Notes under the pieces: model-generated
Told to the model about the DNA's origin: nothing
Database searches by the model: none
What the model saw: the letters and a program-made list of their open reading frames with translations, nothing else
Position numbers and translations under genes: made by a program
DNA from: Carboxylicivirga sp. M1479
GTDB lineage: Bacteria; Bacteroidota; Bacteroidia; Bacteroidales; Marinilabiliaceae
Direction of reading: 5' to 3'
DNA: 64,000 nucleotides
Assembly (NCBI RefSeq): GCF_007097485.1
Contig: NZ_VKDE01000004.1
Span: 1-64,000, forward strand
In this document: positions 24,890 to 60,406 of the stretch, in pieces
Layout of the letters: each line of letters begins with the position of its first letter
Position numbering within the stretch: the stretch's first letter is position 1

Positions 24890-25016
24890 AATCTAGGTTG
24901 TAATTATTAGAACGATGAAACAAACAATTAATTTTTGTATCCAATTTACACAAAGGTTACTGATGAAAAATTTATTTGAGAGTTCTATTTGGCAAACGAA
25001 AGCAAATAATAATCGT

Positions 25017-26471
25017 ATGAAAAGTATTAAAATATATATACCAATTCTTCTAGTTTTCATGGCAGCCCTCCAATGGTCTTGCTCCGATGACTTTCTTACA
25101 GAAGAACCAACCACTGCACTACCAAGTGATGATGTATTCAAATCAATTATTACAGCCGATGCAGCGTTGGTTGGAGCATATGATGCCTTAAGTACCTATT
25201 CTTTTGAAGGTTTGTATTGGCCTATCATGTCCGATTTAATGGGTGATGATGTTATGGTTGTGCCTGGTGCTGGTAATTGGGGGTGGTTTGTAGAGGCCTA
25301 CCAATTAGAGCTATTACCTAATTACTCATGGGTTGATTCGCCTTGGTGGGCAGCCTACAAAATTATTTATGATGCCAACCAGTTTGTGGCCTATGGTAAC
25401 ACAGTGCCTGATGCTACTGAAGAGCAGAAAAACGAATTAGTTGGGCAAGGGAAAGCCTTAAGGGCTCTTGTTATGTTAAAGTTAGCCCAACTGTATGCAC
25501 CAGCATACCATACCAATCCTGATGCATTATCGATCATTAATGTAACAGAACCTGTGGATGCCAATTCGGAGGATTACCCAAGAGCTTTAAACCGCGAGGT
25601 GTATGCTCAAATTGAATCTGATTTATTATCTGCGGTTAGTTTATTAGATAACAATGGCGAGGGAAGCAGAGCCGATAATCGTTATGATGAAGGTTTCCTG
25701 GACAAGCGTGGTGCCAATGCTTTGCTAGCTCGCTTGTATCAAGATATGCATGAGTGGGAAAAAGCCCGTGATCATGCAAAAGCTGCCTACGAAGGTTTGG
25801 AGTTAATGTCGCTGGATTATTGGGTTAATTATGGCTTTTCGTACCGTACCTCAGAAACCATATTTACCGTGGCTTATACCTTATCCGATAATAACACCTA
25901 TCTGTCTATTCCATCGTTCTACTATCCGATTGCCGGTTATAGTTCGATTCGTTTGAATGACGAATTTGTAAACCTTTACCGTGCCGGAGATGCTCGTAAA
26001 GAGTATGTCATTTATCAAGATGATGAGATTGATACAGAAAGACACTTTACAACCAAATTCATTCATAATAACCAAGTTGGTAATGCCGAAAGAATTAGTA
26101 TTCGTGCAACCGAGATGTACTTGATTGAAGCTGAATGTGAAGCAGAATTGGGTAACTATGGGAATGCTCAAGATGCCTTGTGGGCTGTGCAAGAGCGTGT
26201 TTTTTCGCGTTCATCTAAGTCCTCAGCAACAGGGCAGGCTCTAATCGACGAAATACTGCTTGAACGACGTAAAGAGTTATTTGGAGAAGGATTTCGTTTA
26301 AATGATATCAAACGACGCAGCCTGCCAATTTTACGAAAAGGTGACCATTGGGCCGATGCTGATTTTGTATTTGGCGATGACAACTATTACCGCCTTACTT
26401 TTCCAATTCCTCAATCGGAAATTGATGCCAACCCACTGATTAACGAAGAACATCAGAACGAGGGTTACTAA
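25017..26471 (+). CDS. SusD/RagB-family substrate-binding surface lipoprotein
   Basis: A 484-residue lipoprotein from the ATG at 25017. That start was chosen over the open frame from 24915 because it gives a proper signal peptide ending in LQWSC (Cys22), followed by SDDFLTEEPT, the classic SusD N-terminus. The fold is the TPR-like SusD type, with LVGAYDALSTYSFEGLYWPIM and a C-terminal block LLERRKELFGEGFRLNDIKR followed by FPIPQSEIDANPLI, both hallmarks of the family. It forms the lid of the SusC barrel and binds the ligand outside the cell. It follows SusC by 127 bases and precedes the FISUMP lipoprotein by 33. Confidence 0.94.
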   Translation: MKSIKIYIPILLVFMAALQWSCSDDFLTEEPTTALPSDDVFKSIITADAALVGAYDALSTYSFEGLYWPIMSDLMGDDVMVVPGAGNWGWFVEAYQLELLPNYSWVDSPWWAAYKIIYDANQFVAYGNTVPDATEEQKNELVGQGKALRALVMLKLAQLYAPAYHTNPDALSIINVTEPVDANSEDYPRALNREVYAQIESDLLSAVSLLDNNGEGSRADNRYDEGFLDKRGANALLARLYQDMHEWEKARDHAKAAYEGLELMSLDYWVNYGFSYRTSETIFTVAYTLSDNNTYLSIPSFYYPIAGYSSIRLNDEFVNLYRAGDARKEYVIYQDDEIDTERHFTTKFIHNNQVGNAERISIRATEMYLIEAECEAELGNYGNAQDALWAVQERVFSRSSKSSATGQALIDEILLERRKELFGEGFRLNDIKRRSLPILRKGDHWADADFVFGDDNYYRLTFPIPQSEIDANPLINEEHQNEGY

Positions 26472-37143: not shown

Positions 37144-38802
37144 TTAATATGTATAACTAGTAATATCCGATGTTTTATAGCCAATTCGAACCGCGCGAGC
37201 AACTATTCGACCGCTCTTTGTTTTTAACGGTTTTGAATACAATTGCCAGTGATCAGATCCAATGTTTGCACCCATTTGATAAGCGATTGAGGCACCTTGT
37301 GTACCAGAGTGTAAGGCCAGATTCTTGCCCTCTTTGCTATAGGTAACAGGCAGCGTGGCTGGTTGTACACCTCCTGGCCACATCATGTTCACCAGATCGT
37401 GTTCTGGTATAAAACCCTTATCGTTTATGGCCAGCTGCCATTGGTACAATGCATTTCTCAGTTCAATCAGTTTGTTTTTGTGCTCTGGGCTTTGGGCTAA
37501 ATTATTTACTTCATCGGGGTCATTTTCCAGATCATACAACTCCTCATAGGGTAAGCTATTCTGAAAAATGTATTGCGCATCACCTTGTAACTCGCCGGCG
37601 GTATTCATCTTTATCAGCTCTTGCGTCATCTCTATCTGTTCACGGTAAAAGAGTGGATAGGTATAGGGCTGATTAAGCAGGTAATTACGAATATAAACAT
37701 AGCGCCCATCAATCACCGAACGACTCATCTGTGTGTGTTCATCAAAACGATCGGCGCTACCAAAGTTATAGGAGCGTGCTGTTGGTGCTTTGTGCTTTCC
37801 CAAAAAGGCTTGTCCTTGCATGTGATCCGGTGTTTCAATACCTGCCAGCGACATAACGGTGGGTCCTAAATCCATCAGCGAAACGATGTCCTTTACTTCG
37901 GTGCCAGCCATTCTCTTATCGGGGAAACGAACGATTAAAGGCACCTGTAAACCTGAATTGCCAACGGCGCGTTTCTGACGTAACAGTGGTCCGCCATGAT
38001 CGCTCCAGAAAAATATGATGGTATTATCAAGCAAGTCTTCGTCCTCAAGCTTTTTTAGCCACACGCCAATTTCCTGATCCAGAGTTTCGATGTTGGAGTA
38101 CTTTCGCCCCACATCGCGTCTCACAAGCGGAATGTTGGCAAAGTAAGCGGGTATGTGTATTTGTGCTGTGTCTACAGTAATGGGTTCGTTTTGGCGCTTC
38201 CATATTTGCGATTCATGACTCACGCCATGGTTAAACACCGCAAAGAATGGCTGATCTTGTTCCCGGTTTTTATAATGCGCCTGGCTGCCTACCTCATCCC
38301 AGGCAGTTATGGGACAATTAAACTGGTAATCGCATTTGGCGTTGTTGGTGCAGTAGTAACCTGCTTCACGCATGTATTCGCTAAAGCAGCGCACCTCTGC
38401 CGGTGGCACAACCGAATATTCGGGCACATTACGGCCTGTTTTATCTTTTACTTTAATAATTCTTTTATAGCTCTCCTCTTCAGGTGTTTTAAAACCCCAA
38501 TGATTACCTGTTCGCATGTGCTGTGCACCAATACTTACGGGGTACATGCCGGTTATAATAGAGGCACGACTTGGCGCACAAACACCCACCGTGGCATAGG
38601 CATTTTTAAATAAAACACCTTCATGTGCCAAGCGGTCAATGTTGGGCGTTTCAATGCCTTCGCTACCATAGGCCCCCAGTACCGGACCGATGTCTTCACA
38701 GCTCAGCCAAAGAATATTATATGGCTTTTGAGCTGATGCCTGCTGTAGAATGAAGCATAAGAAAAAACAGACTGTCAGAAATTTGTAGAGTGATGTAAAC
38801 AT
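37144..38802 (-). CDS. Sulfatase, heparan N-sulfatase-like (S1_8-type)
   Basis: A 552-residue formylglycine-dependent sulfatase with a signal peptide (ending QASAQ). Metal-site residues are in LWLSCEDIGP (Glu36, Asp37), a start typical of the heparan-N-sulfatase-like S1_8 group. The maturation motif is VCAPSRASIITG with Cys75 to be oxidised to formylglycine, and FFWSDHGGPL carries the second metal site. The C-terminal subdomain has EELYDLENDPDEVNNL, common to the family. It should remove sulfate from a sugar in the periplasm or at the surface; the exact position is unknown. It starts 3 bases after the GH-sulfatase fusion gene ends and is in its operon. Confidence 0.92.
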   Translation of the reverse strand: MFTSLYKFLTVCFFLCFILQQASAQKPYNILWLSCEDIGPVLGAYGSEGIETPNIDRLAHEGVLFKNAYATVGVCAPSRASIITGMYPVSIGAQHMRTGNHWGFKTPEEESYKRIIKVKDKTGRNVPEYSVVPPAEVRCFSEYMREAGYYCTNNAKCDYQFNCPITAWDEVGSQAHYKNREQDQPFFAVFNHGVSHESQIWKRQNEPITVDTAQIHIPAYFANIPLVRRDVGRKYSNIETLDQEIGVWLKKLEDEDLLDNTIIFFWSDHGGPLLRQKRAVGNSGLQVPLIVRFPDKRMAGTEVKDIVSLMDLGPTVMSLAGIETPDHMQGQAFLGKHKAPTARSYNFGSADRFDEHTQMSRSVIDGRYVYIRNYLLNQPYTYPLFYREQIEMTQELIKMNTAGELQGDAQYIFQNSLPYEELYDLENDPDEVNNLAQSPEHKNKLIELRNALYQWQLAINDKGFIPEHDLVNMMWPGGVQPATLPVTYSKEGKNLALHSGTQGASIAYQMGANIGSDHWQLYSKPLKTKSGRIVARAVRIGYKTSDITSYTY

Positions 38803-38805
38803 TAT

Positions 38806-41800
38806 TTATGCTTTAATAAATTTGAGTATTGTCTTTTGTCCTTGACTTTGTATTTCGATGTAATATACACCTTTTGCCAGTGATCCAATGTCAATGGATG
38901 AGTGCTGCTTAGTGATGTGCTTAATTATTTGCCCGTTAATAGTATAGATGCGTGATGAATCAAGCAGCTCAACGCCTTTAAAATACAAGGTGCTTTTAGC
39001 CGGATTGGGGTAAACACTAATGGCGTTCATCGGTGCATCATCAATAGCATCTACAATGGTAGCTGTTGATCGGGATATTTTCAAATCATCAATCCATATT
39101 TTGTATTCCGTATTTTTCTGCACAGCCAGGTTGTTGAAGTAAATAAACAAGCGGTTGTTACTGAGTACGACAGTGTCGAAAAACTCGGTGTACTCGGTGC
39201 TGAGGGCATTGTATTTTGATGGATTATTAATACTGCCAATGGATAGCATATTTTGACCACTGCTATTGGTTCGTGCTTTATAGGATACAATAAAATCCTG
39301 ACCTCCGAAACCCGACATGTCAATGGTTCTGAGTTTAACAAGGTTGCCACCTTCACTTGTTTCTTTAGCGTTAAAGGTGATTTCCAGTGCCTGGCTACCA
39401 TTGTTGGGGCTGTCGTCTACTACCTGGGCCGTAAAACTATTGAGGTAATCCGATTTCCATAGTCGGTTCCACATGGATTCAGCATGCAGCCAATAATCAC
39501 CCTGGAAAGCATCATTTATCTGATAATTTTCGAAATGCTCAATATACGGAATGCCTAATTGACTGGTAGGTAGTTCATTTAAAAATGAATATTGCTGACT
39601 CCACCAATCGGCAGCTTTTAATTTTAGTTCATCAATAACTGTGCTGTAGGCCTGATCACTGGCCCGGTTGATTGTTTCTAGCGGGTCGGTTTCGTAATCA
39701 TATAGTTCTATCAGTTTAATACGCGATTCATCCCAGTCAATCAGGTCGGTACGATCGTTGCTGCTATGCATCCACAGGGTCATGCGGTATCGATCAGTCC
39801 TGAATGAGTAACTGGCTCCACCGCCCTTACGGTATTCACTAACGGCCATGTTTTTGCTAAGTTCCTCACCACGCAAGGCCGGCGACAGACTTTCGCCTTG
39901 TAAAGTATTTTGTGGTACATCCAATCCGGCCAAATCGCACAGGGTAGGGTAAATATCGGTAAATTCTACCGGTGTATTATTTATGCCAGTGCTACCATCG
40001 GGTGAAGAGATGATTAGAGGTGCTCTCACCGAATTTTCAAACTGCGTGTGTTTGCCCCACTGGTTATGATCACCCAAATGATAACCATGATCGCCAAATA
40101 GCAACACCACTGTGTTTTCGCTTAGGCTCCTTTCCTCTAATTTATTCAGTAGTTTACCCACTTGTGCATCTATGTAGGAAACACAAGCGTAGTAGCCGTG
40201 CAGTAATTCACGCTGATCATCAGGTGTTAGTATGCCATCGCCCAAAGTAGGGTCGTTGTGTGTCCATACATCATCCACATCATCATAACTCATAGGTTCT
40301 GGTGTGTTATAAGCATAATCAGGACTACCTGTAGCCATCTTCTGAAACTCTGCCAAATCGAGTGAGGCACGATCGTACAGATCCCAATATTTTTTTGGAG
40401 CCACAAAGGGGATGTGGGGTTTTTTAAAACCAACCGCTAAAAAGAAATTCTCTGACTCGCTTGCCAAAGCATCTAATTTACCCAGGGCATCAAGGGCGAT
40501 TTGTCCGTCGGTATAACCATCGTCATCAACACCTGCCGGCCCTTGTTCTGTGGCCATATTGGCTGCTACCCGGTAGTTACTGCCTTGTACAAAAGGACCG
40601 TACTCAGTCGGGTAAGTATAGTCCGAAGGGTTGGTATATGGAATGGTCCAGCTATAGGCATCGTGTTTATCATCCACATTACGCGGGTCGTAAATTTTAC
40701 CAGCACCGGCAGTGGTGTAGCCATTGTTTAAAAAATATTCGGGCAAAGTAAGCACTTCAGGGTTCTCTGTTCTTAATTGAGAAGATAAATTACGAATGCC
40801 AGTCCCATCAGGTGTGAGTCCGCTCATGATGCTGGCACGCGATGGACCACACACTGCCCACTGGCAGTAGGCTTTGGTGAATACGACACCTTGCTCTGCC
40901 AAACGATCAATATTGGGAGAGTGAATCTGTGATTCGCCATAGCAGTTGAGAACGGGACGCAAATCATCCACGGCAATCATCAACACATTACGACGCGGTA
41001 CTGTCACTTTTGGCTTTAATACCAAAAAGTTAACACTGTATTTTTTGGCTTCAAAAGTGTTTTCACTCTTTAGCTGCGCTTTAAAAGGTGCAATACTGGC
41101 ATAGTTATTCGGGCCACCTCCTGTGCTTGTGCCTGTTTCGCCATTGATGTAAAACTTATGGTCACCGGCTTCAAGGCTGTTGGCATGTAGTTCGTGCCAG
41201 TACATGTCCGCTTCTTCCGTTGCAAAAGTCGATAAGTCAATATTTACGGTATGGGCATTGGCATCGGTGTTGATGATGATCAAGCCCACCTCACCACTGC
41301 TGAAAGTGGAAGCATAGGTTTTAATGTGGGCATTGTTGGATGACGCCTCAATCATCTGATCACCAAAGTGGCTATTGATGTATTGATAGGGCATGTAACT
41401 CTGGCGCGGCGTATAGTCGGCCTGCTGAGGATCAGCTTTTGCAAGAAAGCCTTTGCTCTCTTGTGCTGATTCGCTCCAGTTCCATTCCGACACCCACAGA
41501 TCAACCATGCCATAGCCGTTTTTAATGGCTTCGGCCAATACCTGTGTCACAAATAGTCCATTGACCATGGTGCAGTTCATGGGGCCACGTGAGTTAAACT
41601 CGGTCATGGCCACCGGGTAATAGTCACGTGGTTTACCGGTGTATTTCTCAATGCAATCCAGTAAGGTGGTGTGTACACTTTCTACCTGGGGCACACTGGC
41701 CAGTATATTTTCTGCTGTGGCATCTTTCACACTTGTAAAATAATTATGAACCACCAAAAAGTCGGCATGGTCTTTCACTTCAGGTAGCAAGCCACTGTTC

Positions 41801-42579
41801 CAGTCGTCATCTTCGCGAGTGACTACAGCACCTACTTTAATGGATGCATCAACGGCCTTCATCGCTTCAGCAAACACACAAAAGTCTTCGCCATATTCTT
41901 GCCCTGTTGTTACCACACCATCTATTTCGTAGCCCTCTTCCCAGGCTCCGTAGCATTCGTTACCAATTTCCCAGTATTTAATACCGGCATCCAGCTCAAT
42001 ATTTAGCCTACGAACAAAACCAGCGGCATAATCGGCTGCTTGTTGTACTCTGGCTTCACGTGTTCCTTCGGTGGTGATACCATAACGCGCATAAAAATAG
42101 TTGACTACCACGGTGGCTTCACTATTGGCATTCTTCTTAAACTGGACAAACATCTCTGGTGGCATGCTGTTGTGTTTGCTGAGGGTGCCATCAATCGGAT
42201 TAAACTCTACCCGTGTTTCTGTGGGTGTGTTACCATCGTAAAAATAGATATTGGACCCACTGCCGGCAGGGTAACGCATAGAACCAATGCCAGCATTGGT
42301 ATATAGCTGAGTGCGGTCTAATTGGGTATTGCCGTTTCTAAAGGTGGTATTCACACCCAGGTGAGTGGGTAATACTTTGTTTAAAACCAAATTGGTGTTA
42401 AAAGTAACCCTAGCATCTCCCGAAGTAGTTGGGAGTGTGCTATTGGTATATGAACTTGGTGTGATGTAGTGTTTTTCTTTCCAGGTATCCTGAAAAAACT
42501 GACGAGGGTTTTGTGCATAACCTTGCATCGATAAGGATGATAAAATAAGACAAATTATGAGGTAGATAGATTTTTGCAT
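38806..42579 (-). CDS. Clan GH-A glycosidase-sulfatase fusion with T9SS sorting domain
   Basis: A 1,257-residue secreted two-enzyme protein from the ATG at 42579 (an upstream in-frame ATG at 42621 would bury the signal peptide, MQKSIYLIICLILSSLSMQG). Residues about 55-470 form a (beta/alpha)8 glycosidase: YWEIGNECYGAWEEG with probable acid/base Glu208, and VAMTEFNSRGP with probable nucleophile Glu327, a GH-A layout near GH51/GH39/GH79; I cannot assign the family. A beta-sandwich follows, then an iduronate-2-sulfatase-like (S1_7) domain with IAVDDLRPVLNCYG, formylglycine Cys577 in VCGPSRASIMSG and LFGDHGYHLGDH. A carbohydrate-binding-like segment (about 1015-1165) and a T9SS type A domain (SVYPNPAKSTLYFKGV ... 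KGVYYIEIQSQGQ) end it. Confidence 0.9.
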   Translation of the reverse strand: MQKSIYLIICLILSSLSMQGYAQNPRQFFQDTWKEKHYITPSSYTNSTLPTTSGDARVTFNTNLVLNKVLPTHLGVNTTFRNGNTQLDRTQLYTNAGIGSMRYPAGSGSNIYFYDGNTPTETRVEFNPIDGTLSKHNSMPPEMFVQFKKNANSEATVVVNYFYARYGITTEGTREARVQQAADYAAGFVRRLNIELDAGIKYWEIGNECYGAWEEGYEIDGVVTTGQEYGEDFCVFAEAMKAVDASIKVGAVVTREDDDWNSGLLPEVKDHADFLVVHNYFTSVKDATAENILASVPQVESVHTTLLDCIEKYTGKPRDYYPVAMTEFNSRGPMNCTMVNGLFVTQVLAEAIKNGYGMVDLWVSEWNWSESAQESKGFLAKADPQQADYTPRQSYMPYQYINSHFGDQMIEASSNNAHIKTYASTFSSGEVGLIIINTDANAHTVNIDLSTFATEEADMYWHELHANSLEAGDHKFYINGETGTSTGGGPNNYASIAPFKAQLKSENTFEAKKYSVNFLVLKPKVTVPRRNVLMIAVDDLRPVLNCYGESQIHSPNIDRLAEQGVVFTKAYCQWAVCGPSRASIMSGLTPDGTGIRNLSSQLRTENPEVLTLPEYFLNNGYTTAGAGKIYDPRNVDDKHDAYSWTIPYTNPSDYTYPTEYGPFVQGSNYRVAANMATEQGPAGVDDDGYTDGQIALDALGKLDALASESENFFLAVGFKKPHIPFVAPKKYWDLYDRASLDLAEFQKMATGSPDYAYNTPEPMSYDDVDDVWTHNDPTLGDGILTPDDQRELLHGYYACVSYIDAQVGKLLNKLEERSLSENTVVLLFGDHGYHLGDHNQWGKHTQFENSVRAPLIISSPDGSTGINNTPVEFTDIYPTLCDLAGLDVPQNTLQGESLSPALRGEELSKNMAVSEYRKGGGASYSFRTDRYRMTLWMHSSNDRTDLIDWDESRIKLIELYDYETDPLETINRASDQAYSTVIDELKLKAADWWSQQYSFLNELPTSQLGIPYIEHFENYQINDAFQGDYWLHAESMWNRLWKSDYLNSFTAQVVDDSPNNGSQALEITFNAKETSEGGNLVKLRTIDMSGFGGQDFIVSYKARTNSSGQNMLSIGSINNPSKYNALSTEYTEFFDTVVLSNNRLFIYFNNLAVQKNTEYKIWIDDLKISRSTATIVDAIDDAPMNAISVYPNPAKSTLYFKGVELLDSSRIYTINGQIIKHITKQHSSIDIGSLAKGVYYIEIQSQGQKTILKFIKA

Positions 42580-42642
42580 AGTTTTTTTTGAACAGATTGT
42601 TTCCAATGTAAACGTAGGCACATTTGTTTGTTGACGTGTTTT

Positions 42643-42782: not shown

Positions 42783-44504
42783 ATGAAAAAATTGTTTACT
42801 CTTTTTATTGTCGCATTATCCGTTAATATATATGCGCAAAATTATGTGCCGAATCCTGATTTCGAAGGAGGGGATGCTGGTTGGATCAATAGTGGTGGCA
42901 TTAGTAGGAAAATTGTTTCCCCAGGTCATGATGGTTCAACTAATGCCTACCAAATTGAGGGAATTGCAAATAAAGGTGTGCAGTATGTAACGGACGGATT
43001 AACCGAATTAGTAAGTGGAGATTACGAACTGTCTTTTTGGGCAAAAGGAGTAGTCGGCCAACAGGCAAAATTTAAAGTGGTATTCACAGATGGTAGTATG
43101 ACAACGGTGATTGGTACTGCATTTAAGGAATCCGATACCTGGGAGCAATTTAGTAAGACTGTTAGCTTGGATGCAACTGTGAATATTAATAAGTTTGTAG
43201 TTCAGGCTCAAACTGTTGAGGCTTCCGGAGCTCAAACTTTCGTGGTCGATGATTTGTTTTTCGGAGTAAGAATAGATACGTATAGTTTAACAACATCAGT
43301 TTCTGGCCCTGGAACAATTTCACCTTCTAGTGGTGATGTGCCGCAGGATTCAGACCAAACCATTACAGCAATCCCATATCATGGCTATGAGTTTTCAGGG
43401 TGGGGTGGTGATTTAAGTGGAGCTACAAATCCAGCTACTTTAACAATGGATGCCGATAAAAGTATTTCTGCTACTTTTACTAAAAAGGCAGATTATGAAA
43501 CTCTTTTTGAGTGGAATTTTAATACTGATACAGATGCTGAAGGATGGACAACCTCAAGCCACTGCAGTGTAGATGTTGCTGGAGGCAATGCTGTTATGTC
43601 TTTATCCGGAGATTATCCTAAATTAATAAAAGAACAATTGGGTATTGATTCAGATGTGCTTGATGTCGTTGAAATCAGGATAAAAAACAATACAGCATTT
43701 GGAGCTACTGATAATCAAATGAAAATTTTATATTGGGATCCTACAGTTGGAAGAAATAGGAATATTGGGATTGCAAATACCAGTGTAAATGATTCTGAAT
43801 TTAAGGTTTATAGGATTCCTTTAGGCGGGCATGAATATTGGAATGGAATAATAGAAAGTATATCATTTATGGGGCCTAGCTTATTATCTGAGCCTACGAC
43901 TGCAGGTACAGTTGAAATTGATTATATTAAACTATTAAATGGTAATAAAGACGCTACATTAAGTAGTATGACAAATTCTGTTGGAACCTTAAGTCCTGCT
44001 TTTAGTGCTGATGTTAGTGATTATACTTTAAGCGTTCCATCCGGAACGCAAGTGGTTAATTTTTCTGCACTAGCCACTGTAAGTGACAAATCAACGGTAA
44101 CTGTTAGGCAAATGACTACCGAAGCAGACGTTGAGACTGCAACTGTAGTTGCTGATGGAAACATTGATGTTTCTTTAGGTGCTGGAAAAGCCAGTATTTT
44201 GGTGGAGGCAGAAAATGGAATGAAGAAGTTTTATGTTGTTATGATTACTGTGGAAACAGCAACAAGTATTGATGATAACCTTATTGAACTTTCGATTTAT
44301 CCAAACCCATTACAATCGACATTAAACATAAAAACTACTGGTCAGCTTGGAGTAGTTGAAATCTACTCGTTAACGGGCCAAAAAGTATATGGTAGTAACA
44401 CAGGCAACAAGCAGGTTGATGTGGCGCAACTAGATAAAGGTGTTTACATCGTTAGCATGGTGGTTGATGGTGAAGTGATTCGTAAAAAAGTGACAAAGCA
44501 GTAA
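42783..44504 (+). CDS. T9SS-exported multi-module carbohydrate-binding-like protein without catalytic domain
   Basis: A 573-residue secreted protein. A signal peptide (ending NIYAQ) is followed by a CBM4/9-like beta-sandwich (about 20-155, VPNPDFEGGDAGWINSGG ... FVVDDLFFG), a divergent InlB-B-like repeat (about 170-236, GPGTISPSSGDV ... YHGYEFSGWGGDLSG), a second jelly-roll (about 240-395, FEWNFNTDTDAEGWTTSS), a cadherin-like segment (about 400-490, ATLSSMTNSVGTLSP) and a T9SS type A sorting domain (about 497-573, LSIYPNPLQSTLNIKT ... KGVYIVSMVVDGEVIRKKV). No glycosidase or lyase motif is present. It probably binds the target polysaccharide at the cell surface. It is divergent from the GH-sulfatase fusion and carries its own promoter and terminator; the DNA is visibly more AT-rich than the fusion gene. 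Confidence 0.85.
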   Translation: MKKLFTLFIVALSVNIYAQNYVPNPDFEGGDAGWINSGGISRKIVSPGHDGSTNAYQIEGIANKGVQYVTDGLTELVSGDYELSFWAKGVVGQQAKFKVVFTDGSMTTVIGTAFKESDTWEQFSKTVSLDATVNINKFVVQAQTVEASGAQTFVVDDLFFGVRIDTYSLTTSVSGPGTISPSSGDVPQDSDQTITAIPYHGYEFSGWGGDLSGATNPATLTMDADKSISATFTKKADYETLFEWNFNTDTDAEGWTTSSHCSVDVAGGNAVMSLSGDYPKLIKEQLGIDSDVLDVVEIRIKNNTAFGATDNQMKILYWDPTVGRNRNIGIANTSVNDSEFKVYRIPLGGHEYWNGIIESISFMGPSLLSEPTTAGTVEIDYIKLLNGNKDATLSSMTNSVGTLSPAFSADVSDYTLSVPSGTQVVNFSALATVSDKSTVTVRQMTTEADVETATVVADGNIDVSLGAGKASILVEAENGMKKFYVVMITVETATSIDDNLIELSIYPNPLQSTLNIKTTGQLGVVEIYSLTGQKVYGSNTGNKQVDVAQLDKGVYIVSMVVDGEVIRKKVTKQ

Positions 44505-44709: not shown

Positions 44710-46179
44710 ATGCGTACCTTATTCTCCATATTGTTATTAAGTTGTGTAATTAGTGTCACTGTTTTAGGCGCTAAAAAACGTACAAAGCCATCGCAACCAA
44801 ACATTTTAATTTTCTATGTCGATGATTTGGGGTGGATGGATTTGGCCTGTCAAGGTTCTGAATTTTACGAAACACCAGCCATTGATCAACTGGCTAATGA
44901 AGGCATTCGCTTTACCCAGGGCTATACGGCACACCCCAGATGTGTGCCTGCTCGTTATGGAGTAATGACAGGGAAATACCCTGCTCGCGGACCAGTGCCA
45001 GGAGGCAAAGGCATGGTGGCCGAAGATGTAACCATTGCCGAAGCTTTGAATGAGGGCGGTTATGCCACTTTTTTTACCGGTAAATGGCATTTGTTATTTC
45101 GTGATAAAGAAGGTAATATGCCGCAAAATCAGGGTTTTGATGTTAATGTGGCCGGTGGTGCTGCAGGCGCACCTCCAACTTACGTCTACCCCTATCGGAA
45201 AGGTGAATCTACACCCTCAGGCCGTAAAGGCTATAAAAAAGATGAGATACATGGTTTAGAAGATGGAAAAGAAGGAGAATATATTACCGATCGTTTGACT
45301 GATGAAACGGTGAAGTTCATGACAGAGCATGTGAAGAAGAAATCAGATGAACCTTTCTTTGTATTTCTCTCGCATTATGGTGTACACACCCCTTTTGAAG
45401 CAAAACCGGAGTTGGTAGCCAAGTACGAAGCTAAATTGGCTAAAATGAAGTATGAACTGCCTGAATATGAAAAGACCATTACAGGCGACAATAAGCTGCG
45501 TCAGGATTTCCCGGTTTATGCGGCCATGATCGAGAGTGTAGATCAGAGCATGGCAAAGATTCAATCCACCTTAGAAGGCTTGGGAATTGAGGATAACACC
45601 ATTGTCATTTTTACGGCTGACAATGGCGGTTTATCTACCCGTGGTAATACACGTCAATTGGCCACCTCGAATTATCCTTTGCGCTATGGTAAAGGCTGGT
45701 TGTACGAAGGTGGTATTCGTGAGGCTTTTATTGTGAAATGGCCTGGACAAACCAAGGCAGGCTCTGTGTCTGATGCTTTGGTAACTGGCACAGATATTTA
45801 TCCAACGGTATTGGAGATGGCCGGTTTAAAACAACGTCCCAACGATCACATGGATGGCATGGATGTAACAAATGCCATCAAAGGAAATAAGTTTGAGCGT
45901 AATGCGCCTCTTTTTTGGCATTCACCCGCGGGACGACCAGGAAGTACTGGCGATAGTAATAGTTCAGCTGTACGATTGGGCGATTATAAATTAATTGATT
46001 GGTACGATGAAGGGCGCATAGAATTATTTAATATAAAAGATGACATTGGAGAGAGTAAGGATCTTAGTAGTAGTATGCCTGACAAAGCAAGTGAAATGCA
46101 CCACTTGGTAAAAGAATGGCGCCAATCAATTAATGCCGTTAAGCTAGATCCGAGTAAAAACAAATGGCAGAAGAAATAA
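44710..46179 (+). CDS. Sulfatase, arylsulfatase-type with CVPAR maturation motif
   Basis: A 489-residue secreted sulfatase. A short signal peptide is followed by ILIFYVDDLGWMDLACQG with the metal-binding Asp pair (Asp38, Asp39). The formylglycine motif is RCVPARYGVMTGKYPAR with Cys78: the usual Ser of CxPSR is Ala, which the looser CxPxR rule still allows. FTADNGG supplies the second metal site and GKWHL the conserved Lys-His. It removes sulfate from an unidentified sugar position. It begins a plus-strand run of degradative genes, with the esterase-like gene 73 bases downstream. Confidence 0.92.
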   Translation: MRTLFSILLLSCVISVTVLGAKKRTKPSQPNILIFYVDDLGWMDLACQGSEFYETPAIDQLANEGIRFTQGYTAHPRCVPARYGVMTGKYPARGPVPGGKGMVAEDVTIAEALNEGGYATFFTGKWHLLFRDKEGNMPQNQGFDVNVAGGAAGAPPTYVYPYRKGESTPSGRKGYKKDEIHGLEDGKEGEYITDRLTDETVKFMTEHVKKKSDEPFFVFLSHYGVHTPFEAKPELVAKYEAKLAKMKYELPEYEKTITGDNKLRQDFPVYAAMIESVDQSMAKIQSTLEGLGIEDNTIVIFTADNGGLSTRGNTRQLATSNYPLRYGKGWLYEGGIREAFIVKWPGQTKAGSVSDALVTGTDIYPTVLEMAGLKQRPNDHMDGMDVTNAIKGNKFERNAPLFWHSPAGRPGSTGDSNSSAVRLGDYKLIDWYDEGRIELFNIKDDIGESKDLSSSMPDKASEMHHLVKEWRQSINAVKLDPSKNKWQKK

Positions 46180-47306: not shown

Positions 47307-50300
47307 ATGAAAAATATAAAAATACTCTTATTCACTGCAGTCTTGTTGATGCCATTGCAAAGTTTTTGCAAAAGCCCTAAAGACAAGCCGAATATTTTAT
47401 TCATCGTTGTAGATGATTTAAAAACAGATCTGGCATGTTATGGTCAAACAGGTCTTGTAACACCAGGTATCGATCAATTAGCTGCCCAGGGTGTCATCTT
47501 CGATAATGCCTACTGTCAGCAGGCAGTATGTGCACCTTCTCGTATTAGCTGCTTTACAGGTATGCGACCTGATCGCACGCAGGTAGTCGATTTAAAAACG
47601 GATATGCGCGATAAAACGCCTGACATCATCACGATACCTCAGTTTTTTAAGAATAAAGGCTATGAAACTGTTGGATTTGGTAAGTTGATGCACGGAGCCA
47701 AAGGCAATGATCCACTTTCCTGGACCATACCCTACAAGGAAAAAGACCAACTCAAGTATGCCAAAGGCTACGCATATCCTGCCAATGGGAAATACCAGAA
47801 TCCAGAAGCTATTAAAGCTTATCAAGAAGCAAAAAGTAAAAAGCTAAACTGGTTTGAAACCAATGCCTATTTAAAAGAGCGTAATCTATCACCATCAGTC
47901 GAGAGCAGAGTTGTGCCTGATGATGCCTACCCCGATGGTGCAGTGGCAGAAGCTAGTATGATGCAATTGGAGCAGTTTGCAAAAGGTGATAAGCCGTTCT
48001 TTTTGGCTGTTGGCTTGAATAAGCCGCATTTGCCTTTTGCCGCACCGAAGAAATATTGGGATCTCTATAAACGTGAAAATATAGAGGTACATCCTTTTCA
48101 GGAGAAAGCCAAGCATTCACCCGATTATGCTTACCACACCTGGGGTGAATTACGTAACTACTCAGATATTCCTGATAAAGGAGATTTGTCAATTGATAAG
48201 CAAAAGGAGTTGATTCATGGCTACCGTGCTGCTACTTCATTTGCCGATGCCCAGGTGGCAAAGGTAATGGACAAGTTAAAAGAGCTGAAATTAGATGAAA
48301 ATACAATCGTGGTACTATGGGGCGACCATGGCTGGCATCTGGGTGACCATGGTTTGTGGTGCAAACATTCCAATTTTGAGCAGGCCACTAAGGTGCCTTT
48401 TATTATTAGCGCACCTGGAATGGCTATGGGTGAGCGAGCTGCTACCATGACCGAAATGGTGGATATATTCCCAACATTGATTGAATACGCTGGCTTTAAT
48501 GTACCAAAACAGCTGGAAGGGCATAGTTTGCTTCCGGTGTTGGAGAAGCCCAATAAAAAAGTAAAGGATTATGCGATCAGTCAGTTTCCGCGTGGCAACA
48601 ATAATATGGGCTACTCAATGCGTACTGAACGTTACCGCTTGACTCTTTGGTTAAAAGGTGAATTTCAAAAAGGTTCCATTGTTCATAAACCTTCCATCTT
48701 AGGTGTTGAACTATATGATTACAAGAGAGATCCACTTGAGAAAATATCCTTGGCTGGAGATCCGGCTTATCGTGAAATAACAGCTGAATTAAGAAATAAA
48801 CTATTAACACTACTGCAAGAACAGGCCAAACAAAACAAGGTTAATTATGCAGGAAAAGCTCAGGGAGAAAAAACGAAAAAAGACTCAGGAAAAGGATTGG
48901 CTTCGATGGCCATAATTGATGGGCATTTCTCACAAGAGTTATCAAAAAGCTGGAAGACCAAAGGAGCCAATGGTGCTGTTGTTGACTTCAAAAGGATTGC
49001 CAGTGATGATGGTCATACCTTAAAAGTTGCGGTTTTCAACTTGGGTAAAAATCCATGGGATATACAAATGATGTCGAAAATGCCAATGCAGCTTAAGGCC
49101 GGCGAAACGTTTCGTCTACACATTAAGGGTAAAGGTGGTGAAGGACGTGTGGTACTGCATCCCGAAGGTGGAAAACAGATTGTGCGTCACTTAAATTTGA
49201 GTCAAGAGCGGAGTACGCAGGAACTGAATTTCCCAATTCAGGCAACAGGTGCTTATACCTTAAAATTACTCTTTATTGAAAAAGGAGAATATATCATTCA
49301 GGAAATTGATTTGGGAGATAAAGCGAAGGTAGCTGTACCTTTTGTAGAGGGGAGTGTTCGTCTTGATAATAAAAATATCCATGTATTGGGAGCCAATTAT
49401 GTTACGCGTTCGAGTAATGAATTATCCTTCAGTCGCTTTTCTCATAAAACCTACCATTCGCCAAACGAAGTAAGGATGTTTAGCCTGGCTAATGGAAGAA
49501 CGAACAGTGGGATTAAGCTCTTGTTTAAAACAGCCAGCAATAAAGTAAGCTTGAAGTTTGTTCCTGCTGAAGGAACTAATAGAGGTGCTGAGTTTTTAGT
49601 TCTTCAAGATGGACAGTTTGACAATACCTATAAATTTAATAACTCTATGAGTAAAGGAGAAATGGTATTGGATCTTACCAATAAGTTTACAGGTCAATCG
49701 ACGGTCTTTGAAATAGTATTGCCAAGTTTAATAAATCTTAAACTTCATCAATTGATTGTAGATGAAGGGGCCGATTTGGAGGTCTTTACGCCCGATAAGA
49801 AGCCGGTATACCTCGCAATAGGAAACAGTATCACCCATGGTGTCGGACAAGGGTCAGCCAGTTATTTGAGCTACCCATACTTGTTAGCCGAGAAACTGGA
49901 TTATAACTATTTTAATTTAGCTGTAGGAGGAGCGAAAATATCTCAGGCAGTGGCCGAGCAAACATCAGAAATGCCACAAGCCGATTTGATTACTATTCTT
50001 ATTGGCTATAACGACTTGGTGGGTTTTGGAAAAACACCCGAAGACTATAAAAAAGACTATCGGAAGTTCCTTAAAACAATTCGCAAGCATCAAGCCAATG
50101 CAACGATTTATTGCATAAGTGTCACTTATACTAATACAAAGAAGGGTAAAAAGACTAACTATACCCCAGATGATTTTCGAAAGTCTTTAAATGAATTGGT
50201 TGCGGAATTCTCCCGGGATGATAACAAAATAATCTTTGTTGAAGGCGATAAAATAAGTTCCAAGGAGAACTTACGAGAGGATAATCCGAAGGATCCGGTT

Positions 50301-50369
50301 CACTTTGGCATTAAAGGGGCTGCTTTGTTTGCTGAAGAGTTGTATTCCATTATCGCTAAGGATAACTAA
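47307..50369 (+). CDS. Sulfatase (S1_7-like)-SGNH esterase fusion
   Basis: A 1,020-residue secreted protein joining two enzymes. Residues about 25-510 are an iduronate-2-sulfatase-like sulfatase: NILFIVVDDLKTDLACYG, formylglycine Cys75 in AVCAPSRISCFTG, and WGDHGWHLGDHG. A carbohydrate-binding-like beta-sandwich (about 530-670) follows, then a jelly-roll (about 685-820) and an SGNH hydrolase with block I GNSITHG (Ser841), block III GYND (Asn902) and block V DPVH (Asp996, His999). The jelly-roll plus SGNH order recalls CE2/CE20-type acetylesterases. One chain should thus both desulfate and deacetylate the same polysaccharide. The gene at 50946 encodes a separate copy of the esterase half. Confidence 0.92.
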   Translation: MKNIKILLFTAVLLMPLQSFCKSPKDKPNILFIVVDDLKTDLACYGQTGLVTPGIDQLAAQGVIFDNAYCQQAVCAPSRISCFTGMRPDRTQVVDLKTDMRDKTPDIITIPQFFKNKGYETVGFGKLMHGAKGNDPLSWTIPYKEKDQLKYAKGYAYPANGKYQNPEAIKAYQEAKSKKLNWFETNAYLKERNLSPSVESRVVPDDAYPDGAVAEASMMQLEQFAKGDKPFFLAVGLNKPHLPFAAPKKYWDLYKRENIEVHPFQEKAKHSPDYAYHTWGELRNYSDIPDKGDLSIDKQKELIHGYRAATSFADAQVAKVMDKLKELKLDENTIVVLWGDHGWHLGDHGLWCKHSNFEQATKVPFIISAPGMAMGERAATMTEMVDIFPTLIEYAGFNVPKQLEGHSLLPVLEKPNKKVKDYAISQFPRGNNNMGYSMRTERYRLTLWLKGEFQKGSIVHKPSILGVELYDYKRDPLEKISLAGDPAYREITAELRNKLLTLLQEQAKQNKVNYAGKAQGEKTKKDSGKGLASMAIIDGHFSQELSKSWKTKGANGAVVDFKRIASDDGHTLKVAVFNLGKNPWDIQMMSKMPMQLKAGETFRLHIKGKGGEGRVVLHPEGGKQIVRHLNLSQERSTQELNFPIQATGAYTLKLLFIEKGEYIIQEIDLGDKAKVAVPFVEGSVRLDNKNIHVLGANYVTRSSNELSFSRFSHKTYHSPNEVRMFSLANGRTNSGIKLLFKTASNKVSLKFVPAEGTNRGAEFLVLQDGQFDNTYKFNNSMSKGEMVLDLTNKFTGQSTVFEIVLPSLINLKLHQLIVDEGADLEVFTPDKKPVYLAIGNSITHGVGQGSASYLSYPYLLAEKLDYNYFNLAVGGAKISQAVAEQTSEMPQADLITILIGYNDLVGFGKTPEDYKKDYRKFLKTIRKHQANATIYCISVTYTNTKKGKKTNYTPDDFRKSLNELVAEFSRDDNKIIFVEGDKISSKENLREDNPKDPVHFGIKGAALFAEELYSIIAKDN

Positions 50370-52076: not shown

Positions 52077-53201
52077 ATGAATAAGCACATACTCAGTATT
52101 GTTGGATCAATAATTCTATTTGCTAGTCATTTAAGCTCACAGACTCAAACTCTCAGGCAAATTGTAGATGACAAATATCCTGCAAATAATGTATACATTG
52201 GTGCCACCAGCATGTATAGTAAGATTGGGAGCAAGGAAACAAAGTTGCTTGCGCGCGAATTTTCTTATACAACGCCAGCTAATGATTTTAAACAGAGTTA
52301 CGTGCATCCCAATAATGATACCTGGCGTTGGGATAAAGCTGACGCCTGGATTCAGTTTGCCAGGAAGCATCAGCAAGTCATCCGAATTCATGGCCCAATA
52401 AGTCCTCAATGCTCGCGTTGGGCAAAAAATGATGCACGTACGGATATTGAATTGCTGACTAACCTGAGTGAATACATGTCCGAATTATGTCGTCGTTATA
52501 ACGATGAAGAAGTGGTGCAGTGGATGGATGTGATCAATGAAACGGTTAGTCGTGATGGTAGCTGGAAGACTTCAGAAACTGGGGATACAAAATGGGAATT
52601 ACCATGGGAGTCTATCGGTTATGAAAAAGTGGATAAGGATAAATACCCTCATCTGGGAGGCAAGGTTCCCCTTTACATTATTAGGGCGTTCGAAATTGCG
52701 ACCAAAGAAGCAAGCAATAAAAAACTGGTCATTAATCAACATGGAGGGATGCATGTGGAGATGTGGAACAAGGTGAAGGATTTGGTACGTTACCTGCGTG
52801 ATTCTGGATTGAGGGTGGATGGTGTTGGCTGGCAGGCACACATCAGCTATGGTCGAGATGTCGATTGGGAGTCACCCGAAGTTAGCAGGCAGGCTTTAAA
52901 GGATTTGATTGCATGGGCGCATACTAACAGTTTAGAGTTTCATGTGACAGAATGCAATATTCATGTACCTCTTAATAAGCCAGGAAGTGAGCAAGAGCAT
53001 ATTGATACTTACATGAGTGTTTTTAATACCGTACTGGAAATGCGCCATAGTGGCGTGGTGACTTTTAACTTGTGGAATATTAAGGATGTGCCGCATTATA
53101 AAAACAAAAGTAAGACGGTCATTGCCCCTTGGGATAAGCAGTTAAAACCCAAAGCCATTTATTTTGAGATGAAAAAAGCACTAGAAGATGCAGCTGACTA
53201 A
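52077..53201 (+). CDS. GH10-like endo-glycosidase, copy 1
   Basis: A 374-residue secreted (beta/alpha)8 glycosidase with a signal peptide (ending LSSQTQ). GH10 hallmarks are TPANDFKQSYVHP (68-78), RIHGPISPQCSRW, the acid/base WMDVINETV (Glu155), VGWQAHISYG, the nucleophile FHVTECNIHV (Glu292) and FNLWNIKD near the C-terminus. In usual GH10 xylanases the first motif has Glu before Asn-Asp (ENDMK) and the second reads GHTLVWH; here the Glu is Ala and the Trp is missing, so the substrate-binding subsites differ. It may cut a modified xylan or another beta-linked backbone rather than plain xylan. The next gene, a second copy, starts inside its last codons. Confidence 0.85.
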   Translation: MNKHILSIVGSIILFASHLSSQTQTLRQIVDDKYPANNVYIGATSMYSKIGSKETKLLAREFSYTTPANDFKQSYVHPNNDTWRWDKADAWIQFARKHQQVIRIHGPISPQCSRWAKNDARTDIELLTNLSEYMSELCRRYNDEEVVQWMDVINETVSRDGSWKTSETGDTKWELPWESIGYEKVDKDKYPHLGGKVPLYIIRAFEIATKEASNKKLVINQHGGMHVEMWNKVKDLVRYLRDSGLRVDGVGWQAHISYGRDVDWESPEVSRQALKDLIAWAHTNSLEFHVTECNIHVPLNKPGSEQEHIDTYMSVFNTVLEMRHSGVVTFNLWNIKDVPHYKNKSKTVIAPWDKQLKPKAIYFEMKKALEDAAD

Positions 53202-53211
53202 ACTGAAACTC

Positions 53212-54399
53212 ATGGACAATACATTTAAATATACTTCACAGCTCTTGGCAGTAGTCTTAATAATAAGCCATTGTTGTTCATGTTCATCAGACTTGGAAAA
53301 AGTTATTGATGAGCAAATTGAGTTCTCTGATGAAGAATTAAACACACCAATAAGGGACATCGTTTCAAAGAACTTTTCAAAAAATACACTTTTCGTAGGA
53401 GCAACCAGTAAGTACGATGCAATTGGAACGGAAGAAACTGACTTGTTAGCAAAAGAATTTTCTTATACGACTCCTGCAAATGACTTTAAACAAAGCTATG
53501 TTCACCCTGACAACAATATCTGGAAATGGGAAAAATCTGATGCCTGGATAAAATTTGCCAGGGAGCAAAAGCAAATCATTCGCATTCATGGGCCGATAAG
53601 TCCCCAATGTTCACGATGGGCTCGAAATGACGAGCGTACCAAGGAAGAACTTTCAACCAACCTCAGAGAGTTTATGACTGCTCTATGTCAAAGATATAAC
53701 AACGAGGATGTGGTTGAATGGATGGACGTGATCAATGAAAGTGTTAATAGAGATGGTACCTGGAAAAAAGCTGCTGCAGGTGATGATGGTTGGGAAATGC
53801 CATGGGAGACTATTGGATATATACAAGTTGATGTATCAAGCTATCCACACTTAGAAGGTGTAATCCCAATTTATATCATTCAGGCATTTGAAATTGCATG
53901 TGAAGAAGCAACAAATAAACAGTTAATTATTAATCAACATGGCGGTATGGAAACAGGCATGTGGGATAAAATTAAAGATTTAGTTCGCTATTTGCGTGAT
54001 AATGGGTATCGGGTAGATGGTATCGGATGGCAGGCACACATAAGTTATGGTAGAGATGTACAATGGGAAACACCCGAAGTTGATGCAGAATCTTTAAAAC
54101 AACTCATTAGCTGGGCTCATGATAATAATCTTGAATTTCATGTGACCGAATGTAATATACATGTTCCCACAGACAATCCTGGCTCTGAACAAGACCATAT
54201 GAGAACCTACATGAGTATATTCAATACGCTACTGGAAATGCGTCATGGAGGTGTTATTGGATTTAACTTATGGAACATAAAAGACGTCCCTCACTATAAG
54301 AATGAAAAGAAATGGGTTATTGCTCCATGGGATGAACAGTTAGAACCAAAGACCATTTATGTTGAGATGAAAAAGGCCTTGCTCAAAGCGCATGACTAG
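53212..54399 (+). CDS. GH10-like endo-glycosidase, copy 2 (lipoprotein)
   Basis: A 395-residue paralogue of the preceding enzyme. The ATG at 53212 is chosen because it begins a signal peptide running into CCSCSS (probable lipoprotein Cys); an in-frame ATG at 53188 would overlap the previous gene. It shares ANDFKQSYVHP, RIHGPISPQCSRW, WMDVINESV (acid/base Glu176), GWQAHISYGRDV and FHVTECNIHVP (nucleophile Glu313), so it carries the same unusual binding-site changes. The pair probably arose by tandem duplication and then split by location, one soluble and one membrane-bound. It is separated by 10 bases from copy 1 and followed by a 407-base gap. Confidence 0.85.
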   Translation: MDNTFKYTSQLLAVVLIISHCCSCSSDLEKVIDEQIEFSDEELNTPIRDIVSKNFSKNTLFVGATSKYDAIGTEETDLLAKEFSYTTPANDFKQSYVHPDNNIWKWEKSDAWIKFAREQKQIIRIHGPISPQCSRWARNDERTKEELSTNLREFMTALCQRYNNEDVVEWMDVINESVNRDGTWKKAAAGDDGWEMPWETIGYIQVDVSSYPHLEGVIPIYIIQAFEIACEEATNKQLIINQHGGMETGMWDKIKDLVRYLRDNGYRVDGIGWQAHISYGRDVQWETPEVDAESLKQLISWAHDNNLEFHVTECNIHVPTDNPGSEQDHMRTYMSIFNTLLEMRHGGVIGFNLWNIKDVPHYKNEKKWVIAPWDEQLEPKTIYVEMKKALLKAHD

Positions 54400-56434: not shown

Positions 56435-58243
56435 ATGAATACAATAAGACTCGCACTTATATGCCTGGTGCTGCAATTTAGTAGCTTAGTATATGCACAA
56501 CACCACCATAAACCCCATACCGATGGTATTGAACCCTATTATCAAACCAAGCAGCTAAAAGATTATCTAAAAACGATAGATCCAGATTATTTGCCTTATA
56601 TGTTTGCTTCTGAGGAAAATATGCAATGGTGGAAAGAAGCTAAATTTGGAGTTTTGGTGTGCTGGGATCCTGCATCGGTTACTCAAGTTGCACTTAGCTG
56701 GGGGAGGCATGGTCGTCGACCGCATCATTCAACCGATGGTAAGATCACTAAAGGTGTTCCAGAGCAAGAGTATAACAATAGCTATAAATCCTTTAATCCT
56801 GATAAATTCAATGCTGAGGAGTGGGTTAAATTATGGAAAGAAGCAGGTATGAAATACTTTGTCTTTCTGACAAAGCATCATTATGGTTTTTGTATGTGGA
56901 ACACTAAAACGACCGAATTTAACATTATGAATACACCTTATGGCAAAGATGTAATGGTCGATATTGCTAAAGCATGTGAAAAACATGATATGAAATTAAT
57001 GTGGTACTATTCGCAACCGGACTGGACACATCCATTGTATCGGAAAGAACTTCCGCATACAGAATACAATGAACAGGTTTTATATCCACAACTGCGAGAG
57101 CTGATGAGCTACCCCGGTGTTGATGGTATCTGGTTCGATGGTCTCGGTTTGCCTCCAAGCAGATGGGATTCGCCCAAAATGCTAAAGATTATCAGGGATG
57201 TAAACCCCAAAGCGGTTGTGAATCATCGTCATGGAACGCCTCAATGGCACATGGGTGATTTTGATGGGCCGGAACGCGGTATTGGTCGTTTTCAAACAAA
57301 CAGACCATGGGAAACCTGTCACGTTCTTTCGGGGGCATGGGCTTACAATGGGGAATCTGATGCTTCACCTCTTCCAATAGCTATTCGTACTCTAACAAAA
57401 ACAGCAGGTAATGGAGGGAATCTGATGTTAGGTATTGGTCCGCGGCCTGATGGCTCAGTGGTTGATAAGCATGCGTCCAGACTGAGAGAAATGGGTGAGT
57501 ATTTGGAGCAATATGGTGAAAGTATTTATGCTACTCAGGGAGGCCCATATATTTCTGGACCATGGGGAGCCTGTACCTATAGAGAAAAAAAGGTTTACTT
57601 GCATTTAATGGGAGATATAAAAGACAACGAATTGATACTACCAAACCTACCCGCAGAATTAAAAAGTTACAGGGCTTTAACTGGTGAGAAAAACCTGAAA
57701 ATTAGCAATACTAAAAAGGGCTTGAAAATTAGGTACGATAAAAATGAAATGTCTTTATTTCCTGTTATTGAGCTTTGCTTAGATACCGATGCCACAACAA
57801 TTTATCCCATAAAAACACAAGGGCCAATATTAATAGGCAATGCCACCATAACAGCTTCGTCTGATTTAGGATCAGGCTTTACAGCTAATAATCTTTTACC
57901 ACAAGCAGGTGAAGATTTTTCTGAAGGAATACATATTAAAAAATCATGGAAACCGGCAAACGCTGATGAGCAACCAACATTGCTTTATAAATGGAAAGAA
58001 GAACAGCAGATTAAACAAATAAATATTAAAGAAAATCGTGACTTAAGAGCTTCTAATATTGAAAGTTATGAAATGAAGGCGATGATTAATGGTGTTTGGG
58101 AAACCATACACAAAGGTTACGAAGTTGGCCCTTACTGTGGAATCCACTTTAAAAATGTCATTAAGACTTCCCAATTGAAAATTATATTTGATAAAAAGAA
58201 AAAAATCGAAATTAATAAAATCCTAATATACTCAGGGATTTAA
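56435..58243 (+). CDS. GH29 alpha-L-fucosidase, copy 1 (His-to-Cys variant)
   Basis: A 602-residue secreted GH29-type enzyme. The signal peptide is followed by a His-rich mature start (QHHHKPHTDGIEPYY). The catalytic barrel has TKHHYGFCMWNTKTT (His148-His149, fucose-binding), the nucleophile GVDGIWFDGLGLPPSRW (Asp235) and NHRHGTPQWHMGDFDGPERG. At residue 76 the usual FVHWG-type motif reads LVCWDP, so the His expected to contact fucose is Cys (codon TGC), while the neighbouring copy keeps His. The C-terminal 150 residues look like an F5/8-type beta-sandwich (SSDLGSGFTANNLLP). It probably releases alpha-L-fucose, or a related sugar with altered specificity, from oligosaccharides. Confidence 0.9.
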   Translation: MNTIRLALICLVLQFSSLVYAQHHHKPHTDGIEPYYQTKQLKDYLKTIDPDYLPYMFASEENMQWWKEAKFGVLVCWDPASVTQVALSWGRHGRRPHHSTDGKITKGVPEQEYNNSYKSFNPDKFNAEEWVKLWKEAGMKYFVFLTKHHYGFCMWNTKTTEFNIMNTPYGKDVMVDIAKACEKHDMKLMWYYSQPDWTHPLYRKELPHTEYNEQVLYPQLRELMSYPGVDGIWFDGLGLPPSRWDSPKMLKIIRDVNPKAVVNHRHGTPQWHMGDFDGPERGIGRFQTNRPWETCHVLSGAWAYNGESDASPLPIAIRTLTKTAGNGGNLMLGIGPRPDGSVVDKHASRLREMGEYLEQYGESIYATQGGPYISGPWGACTYREKKVYLHLMGDIKDNELILPNLPAELKSYRALTGEKNLKISNTKKGLKIRYDKNEMSLFPVIELCLDTDATTIYPIKTQGPILIGNATITASSDLGSGFTANNLLPQAGEDFSEGIHIKKSWKPANADEQPTLLYKWKEEQQIKQINIKENRDLRASNIESYEMKAMINGVWETIHKGYEVGPYCGIHFKNVIKTSQLKIIFDKKKKIEINKILIYSGI

Positions 58244-58265
58244 GAGAATATCGAAATAAAACGAT

Positions 58266-58477
58266 TGACTAAAATATTAAATAATATGAAACGACCATGT
58301 AAATTTGATTATCCAAATTTTCACACAGGAGGATGATAAAATTTATTTGGGAGTTCCATATGGCCTTTGAAAATAAATTATAATCATATGAAACGAGCCA
58401 TTAGAATAGCTTCATACACAGGAGTATGATTGATTTTGGCGAGTTCCATGTGGCAATAAAAAACAAAATATAATCAC
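58266..58477 (+). repeat. Tandemly repeated leader with two mini-ORFs before GH29 copy 2
   Basis: Two units of about 100 and 90 bases lie in the gap. Each has a TAAT(CAT)ATGAAACGA start, an ACACAGGAG(G/T)ATGAT segment (58324-58337 and 58417-58430) and a GAGTTCCAT(A/G)TGGC segment (58351-58364 and 58441-58454). Each ATG opens a short frame that ends at that ATGA: 58286-58336 (16 residues) and 58388-58429 (13 residues). The real gene start at 58478 (TAATCACATGAAAA) looks like the beginning of a third unit. Confidence 0.75.
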
Positions 58478-60286: not shown

Positions 60287-60314
60287 ACCAAAGGTGTTTG
60301 AATTTATTGCGGAA

Positions 60315-60347
60315 TACAAAGCTTTACATACTGTATAAAGCTTTGTA
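60315..60347 (+). terminator. Perfect 12-base inverted repeat after GH29 copy 2
   Basis: TACAAAGCTTTA (60315-60326) and TAAAGCTTTGTA (60336-60347) pair completely around a 9-base loop, 29 bases after the stop. Each arm also contains the palindrome AAAGCTTT. There is no T run on the plus strand, so it may be an operator for the GH95-like gene instead. Confidence 0.5.
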
Positions 60348-60406
60348 GTTATAAAGAGAGTAAGGTTGATTTAACTATGCTATTGGATTAATGATAAGAA
60401 CTAGAA

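Follow-up and report, generated by a model that had tools for sequence, protein, structure and literature searches.

Within the window analysed here, a stretch of 64,000 nucleotides from Carboxylicivirga sp. M1479, a marine-sediment bacterium of the Carboxylicivirga group within the Marinilabiliaceae, a single polypeptide carries both a glycosidase and a sulfatase. This arrangement raises the question of whether the two enzymes act on the same glycan, and of which kind of glycosidase has been joined to the sulfatase. Sulfated glycans degrade slowly and are studied as a marine carbon sink, and a one-chain enzyme of this type, if truly acting on such a substrate, would show how marine-sediment bacteria attack sulfated glycans at their surface. 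The reading that we consider probable is that of a PUL surface enzyme with two active sites, which desulfates and cuts one xylan-like sulfated glycan.

Domain architecture of the fusion protein

The fusion ORF (38806..42579, minus strand) specifies 1257 amino acids plus a stop codon, without an internal stop over these 1257 codons. The mechanical start is a GTG at position 42621, while the ATG at 42579 opens a normal signal peptide (residues about 1-23; 42511..42579, minus strand), which was recognized by eye from its basic n-region, hydrophobic core and AQ cleavage site. Numbering from this ATG reproduces the residue numbers of the initial annotation, which had described one unbroken frame with a glycosidase, a sulfatase and a T9SS domain; this description was borne out, and the motif positions given there were found to be exact (GNEC at Glu208, MTEFN at Glu327 and CGPSR at Cys577). 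The signal peptide is followed by a GH-A glycosidase (residues 27-525), a sulfatase (residues 530-1000), a CBM4-like module (residues 1008-1180), which was absent from the initial annotation, and a T9SS tail. Pfam matches on the fusion comprised Sulfatase (PF00884, 3.1e-44), SGSH_C and Por_Secre_tail (2.6e-10), and the presence of a glycoside hydrolase and an S1 sulfatase domain on one chain defines it as a bimodular GH-S1 protein.

The glycosidase domain

The AlphaFold2 model of the glycosidase domain (41005..42501, minus strand; pLDDT 90.8, pTM 0.91) was shown to consist of an eight-strand barrel (strands at residues 75-77, 100-103, 154-159, 202-205, 248-252, 274-280, 323-329 and 359-361) followed by a beta-sandwich. 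Glu208 (41956..41958, minus strand), the predicted acid/base, is located just past barrel strand 4, and Glu327 (41599..41601, minus strand), the predicted nucleophile, is located on strand 7, near its end. Both residues are invariant in an alignment of 51 sequences, as are N160, A164, R165, W203, D273, H278, Y280 and W362. When the profile of these 51 sequences was compared with the PDB, GH51 structures were matched at 2.6e-17, with Glu208 and Glu327 aligned to the GNE and DEWN motifs of the GH51 catalytic pair. The (beta/alpha)8 barrel, the Glu pair at strands 4 and 7 and Z scores of about 30 to GH-A structures place the domain in clan GH-A, in agreement with the initial annotation, whose placement of the Glu pair proved correct in the structural model.

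Structure searches identified a GH79 beta-glucuronidase (VIA Z 32.0) and a GH51 arabinofuranosidase (VIA Z 31.2) as the nearest folds, the two families being tied at Z scores of about 30-32 and 14-18% identity. The domain resembles the GH51 alpha-L-arabinofuranosidases and the GH79 beta-glucuronidases/heparanases in fold, in the strands that bear the Glu pair and in the C-terminal beta-sandwich, but differs from them in its low identity and in its scores against the family models. The first 526 residues of the fusion had no match in Pfam, including its GH51 models, and no NCBIfam family was reached by the domain, with NF051901 scoring 44 bits (cut-off 625). Weak matches to the GH51 ArfA model were obtained for 35 of the 51 members, and a single member matched the GH79 model PF03662, at 0.01 only; bacterial GH79 enzymes are poorly covered by Pfam. 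GH158 was not among the PDB matches, an absence that was not counted as exclusion. GH148, which is characterized by an inserted domain between the barrel halves and by INNEN and VTEYN motifs (PMC5725463), was ruled out, the barrel analysed here being devoid of such an insertion and carrying GNEC and MTEFN.

The domain would apparently represent a GH-A family without a name in Pfam and NCBIfam, distantly related to GH51 and GH79, which is consistent with the earlier remark that it falls clearly in no family; to our knowledge, no activity is known for any close member. That it is instead a divergent GH51 or GH79 enzyme which trims side chains, as an alpha-L-arabinofuranosidase or a beta-glucuronidase, would fit its nearest folds and sequences as well as the weak ArfA matches, but is rendered unlikely by the identity of just 14-18%, the wide gap between 44 and 625 bits and the lack of a matching Pfam model. 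The genomic position of its relatives also points away from a side-chain trimmer, as the genes in soil Bacteroidota directly follow that of a surface glycan-binding protein (SGBP), a position associated with backbone-cutting enzymes. A backbone-cutting member of an unnamed GH-A family is the reading retained below.

The sulfatase domain

The second catalytic domain (39580..40992, minus strand) carries the sequence CGPSR (Cys577 to Arg581; 40837..40851, minus strand), which fits the C/S-x-P-S/A-R signature and, together with the PF00884 match, identifies the domain as a formylglycine-type S1 sulfatase. Across 11 aligned fusions, Cys577, D538, D539, K628, H722, D830, H831 and K843 are invariant, of which all but Cys577 are taken by us to be the metal/sulfate ligands and catalytic residues of S1 sulfatases. 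The nearest solved relative is 6HHM (4.9e-73), i.e. P18_S1_7 of Formosa agariphila, an endo-2-sulfo-D-xylose sulfatase which acts on ulvan (PMC9096561) and which, unlike the domain analysed here, stands without a glycosidase partner in the matched entry. Both best solved relatives, 6HHM and human iduronate-2-sulfatase, belong to S1_7, and the closest characterized relatives thus support the S1_7-like sulfatase with an intact CGPSR motif that had been proposed earlier. Genes of the formylglycine-generating (FGE) type are present in the genome, although FGE matches can include non-FGE proteins, and none of the models for the anaerobic maturase anSME exceeded its cut-off in this genome.

The CBM4-like module and the T9SS tail

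Residues 1008-1180 (39040..39558, minus strand) had no match in Pfam and were modelled by AlphaFold2 with moderate confidence (pLDDT 69.5). The best Foldseek match of this moderate-confidence model was the xylan-binding CBM4-2 of Rhodothermus (E 1.1e-6), suggestive of a CBM4-like beta-sandwich. When this module was compared with the same region of unfused sulfatases, profile-profile comparison was uninformative, while a single-sequence search yielded a match. The C-terminal residues (about 1189-1257; 38809..39015, minus strand) matched both PF18962 and TIGR04183 above cut-off, and SprA is encoded in the genome (2604 bits); the sorting domain reported earlier was thereby recovered as a type A tail of T9SS cargo. 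This tail would direct the protein to the cell surface, where the fusion is presumed to reside.

Distribution and origin of the fusion

Among 71 Marinilabiliaceae genomes, the fusion was observed in 12, belonging to five genera, in frames of 1214-1358 residues; the domain order is constant at identities down to about 61%, and the gene has no counterpart in several genomes of the same genus. Recurrence in 12 separate genomes rules out an assembly artefact. Both catalytic domains are under strong purifying selection, as dN/dS relative to the nearest relative was 0.068 for the glycosidase and 0.063 for the sulfatase. The 1257 stop-free codons, the domain order shared by the 12 genomes and the low dN/dS values together indicate that the fusion is more than a chance event.

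Close standalone glycosidases (605-632 residues), which bear T9SS-like tails of their own, were found in 3 of the 71 genomes. In the unfused arrangements of G025 and G028, the neighbouring gene upstream of the glycosidase, on the same strand, encodes a CGPSR sulfatase, and the G028 sulfatase possesses a tail which matches the C-terminal part of the fusion (6e-14), plus a T9SS domain. In maximum-likelihood trees, the fused glycosidases were shown to form one clade (100/99), as were the fused sulfatases (98/95); the latter are joined (100/99) by the neighbouring sulfatases of G025 and G028, which are the closest among those sampled. The monophyly observed in both trees and the adjacency of the genes in unfused relatives suggest a single joining of two previously adjacent genes, whereby the glycosidase was apparently left without its own tail. 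Simple loss of a stop codon was ruled out by the gene order, as the sulfatase is encoded upstream when unfused but is C-terminal in the fusion.

The surrounding locus

The next gene, which starts 3 bases past the stop codon of the fusion, encodes an S1_8-type sulfatase (37144..38802, minus strand), as judged from its best matches. Downstream of the fusion, this sulfatase has a full-length homologue in 9 of the 12 fusion genomes, and a tenth genome (G011; L123 5884-6336, minus strand) harbours a fragment of about 150 residues. On the plus strand, the divergent neighbour encodes a CBM4_9 protein (Pfam) with a T9SS tail (42783..44504), followed by a sulfatase whose nearest solved structure belongs to S1_16 (44710..46179) and by a second fusion, consisting, according to its domain matches, of an S1_7-like sulfatase and a GDSL esterase (47307..50369). 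In several relatives (L121, L122 and L125), the latter two enzymes are encoded by separate, adjacent genes. The plus strand furthermore carries a SusC and SusD pair (21812..26471), two GH10 genes (52077..54399) and genes for two GH29 alpha-L-fucosidases and one GH95 enzyme (56435..62701). The locus holds at least five sulfatases (near S1_7, S1_8 and S1_16) and several esterases. A gene at 27947-35563 (plus strand), beside SusC and SusD, encodes a subtilase of 2538 residues with HYDIN-like Ig domains and with weak matches to NIDO and to a T9SS tail. Further esterases (CE2, SASA-type and deacetylase-GDSL) and additional sulfatases are encoded where the locus continues on the same contig, between 60 and 100 kb (L139, L140), and a second sulfatase-rich SusC/SusD locus was observed at about 80-100 kb.

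Proposed substrate and mode of action

Several observations point to a xylan-like sulfated substrate, i.e. the enzymes encoded in the locus, the activities of S1_7 and S1_8 sulfatases on ulvan, in which P18_S1_7 and P32_S1_8 take the 2-sulfate off xylose (PMC9096561), and the gene pattern of G025. In the latter genome (L133), another member of the glycosidase family is encoded beside a GH3 enzyme, a sulfatase-GH10-CBM4_9 protein and further sulfatases, a pattern which matches the reported sulfated-xylan locus type, in which a GH3 and two further sulfatases accompany a GH10 that contains a sulfatase (PMC6794258). The xylan-binding CBM4-2 as the closest match of the CBM4-like module was also counted toward a xylan-like substrate. 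On this basis, the substrate is tentatively proposed, with slightly less than even confidence, to be a xylan-like glycan that carries sulfate, acetyl and fucose groups. The gene for the sulfatase-GH10-CBM4_9 protein lies at L133 2056-5154, near that of the standalone relative of the glycosidase.

According to the two-active-site reading, the N-terminal GH-A domain, presumed to be retaining, would probably cut inside or at the end of the sulfated xylan-like chain, while the S1_7 sulfatase would desulfate this same chain by removing an O-sulfate, which may be the xylose 2-O-sulfate by comparison with its ulvan-active relative, and the CBM4-like module may hold the glycan chain. Desulfation may precede cleavage. 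Indirect support for an action of both domains on one glycan comes from the neighbouring position of the two genes in unfused relatives and from the single fusion suggested by both trees.

Alternatively, the two domains may have been joined merely so that one T9SS tail exports and anchors both, and would then act independently, on different glycans or at different stages. The unfused proteins of both kinds already possess T9SS tails, so that joining mainly saves one of them. The enzymes of six fusions are set apart by a domain of about 75 residues, identified as CHB_HEX_C_1 in one of the six, which argues against a tight interface. Even so, the adjacency of the genes before fusion, the retention of an intact fusion in 12 genomes and a locus seemingly dedicated to one kind of substrate make shared export an improbable sole explanation, and one considerably less likely than coupled action on one glycan. 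That either domain is a catalytically dead scaffold is scarcely credible, as nothing was found in favour of this reading, no variation occurs at the catalytic residues of either domain among the aligned fusions, and the dN/dS values of the two domains are low to about the same extent.

Relationship to known sulfatase-glycosidase proteins

Fusions of sulfatases and glycosidases as such are already known. P36_S1_25|GH78 of Formosa agariphila (PDB 6HR5), which acts in ulvan degradation (PMC9549685, PMC9096561), likewise combines an S1 sulfatase and a glycoside hydrolase on one polypeptide encoded in a degradation locus of a marine Bacteroidota member; it joins, however, a GH78 rhamnosidase to an S1_25 sulfatase within the ulvan pathway, as opposed to the GH-A and S1_7 domains of the present fusion. 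Sulfatase-GH10 proteins from putative sulfated-xylan loci of marine Bacteroidota (PMC6794258) are similar in having a sulfatase and a glycanase on one chain and in their GH10/sulfatase locus, and a relative of the present glycosidase adjoins such a protein in G025. Their glycanase belongs to GH10, whereas the fusion carries an unnamed GH-A domain, placed before the sulfatase. Numerous proteins that combine sulfatase and glycoside hydrolase domains are also described for Planctomycetes on Porphyra (PMC4807772), a different phylum.

No published sulfatase fusion with this GH-A and S1_7 pair was found among open-licence full texts. What is new here is the unnamed glycosidase family together with its history of joining a neighbouring gene, and the family itself is the most valuable part, being present in hundreds of genomes without a Pfam or NCBIfam model. 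The fusion, moreover, points to a partner reaction, which makes the substrate directly testable.

The glycosidase family outside the fusion

A homologue sweep over 84,980 species genomes identified at least 553 relatives of the glycosidase, of which the best 80 were taken forward. In soil Bacteroidota, the homologues are encoded in SusC-SusD-SGBP-GH loci, often with a GH3 gene, and no relative of the fusion's sulfatase was found in these soil loci, which indicates that sulfated xylan is not the general substrate of the family; its base activity is probably directed at an unsulfated chain. Near the active site, the marine and soil groups differ at two positions, with W366 and R331 of the former corresponding to N and F, respectively, in the latter. 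Across the wider phylum sample, all frames found to hold the glycosidase were shorter and lacked an extension the size of a sulfatase, and in the order sample two long Bacteroidales frames (L100 and L101, about 1200 residues) had no sulfatase match. The non-glycosidase parts of the L100 frame match no Pfam family. Plasmid records yielded weak actinomycete relatives only, two of which are annotated as cellulose-binding.

A broader scenario, which is conceivable but which we hold to be less likely than not, is that this glycosidase founds a new, widespread family of GH-A endo-glycanases in soil and marine Bacteroidota, Planctomycetes and actinomycetes. Its marine branch would then have acquired the sulfatase of the neighbouring gene and thereby become specialized for sulfated chains of the xylan type, resulting in a two-step desulfate-and-cut surface enzyme. 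In the soil Bacteroidota loci L012, L029, L031, L033, L042 and L052, the unnamed glycosidase is encoded twice in tandem.
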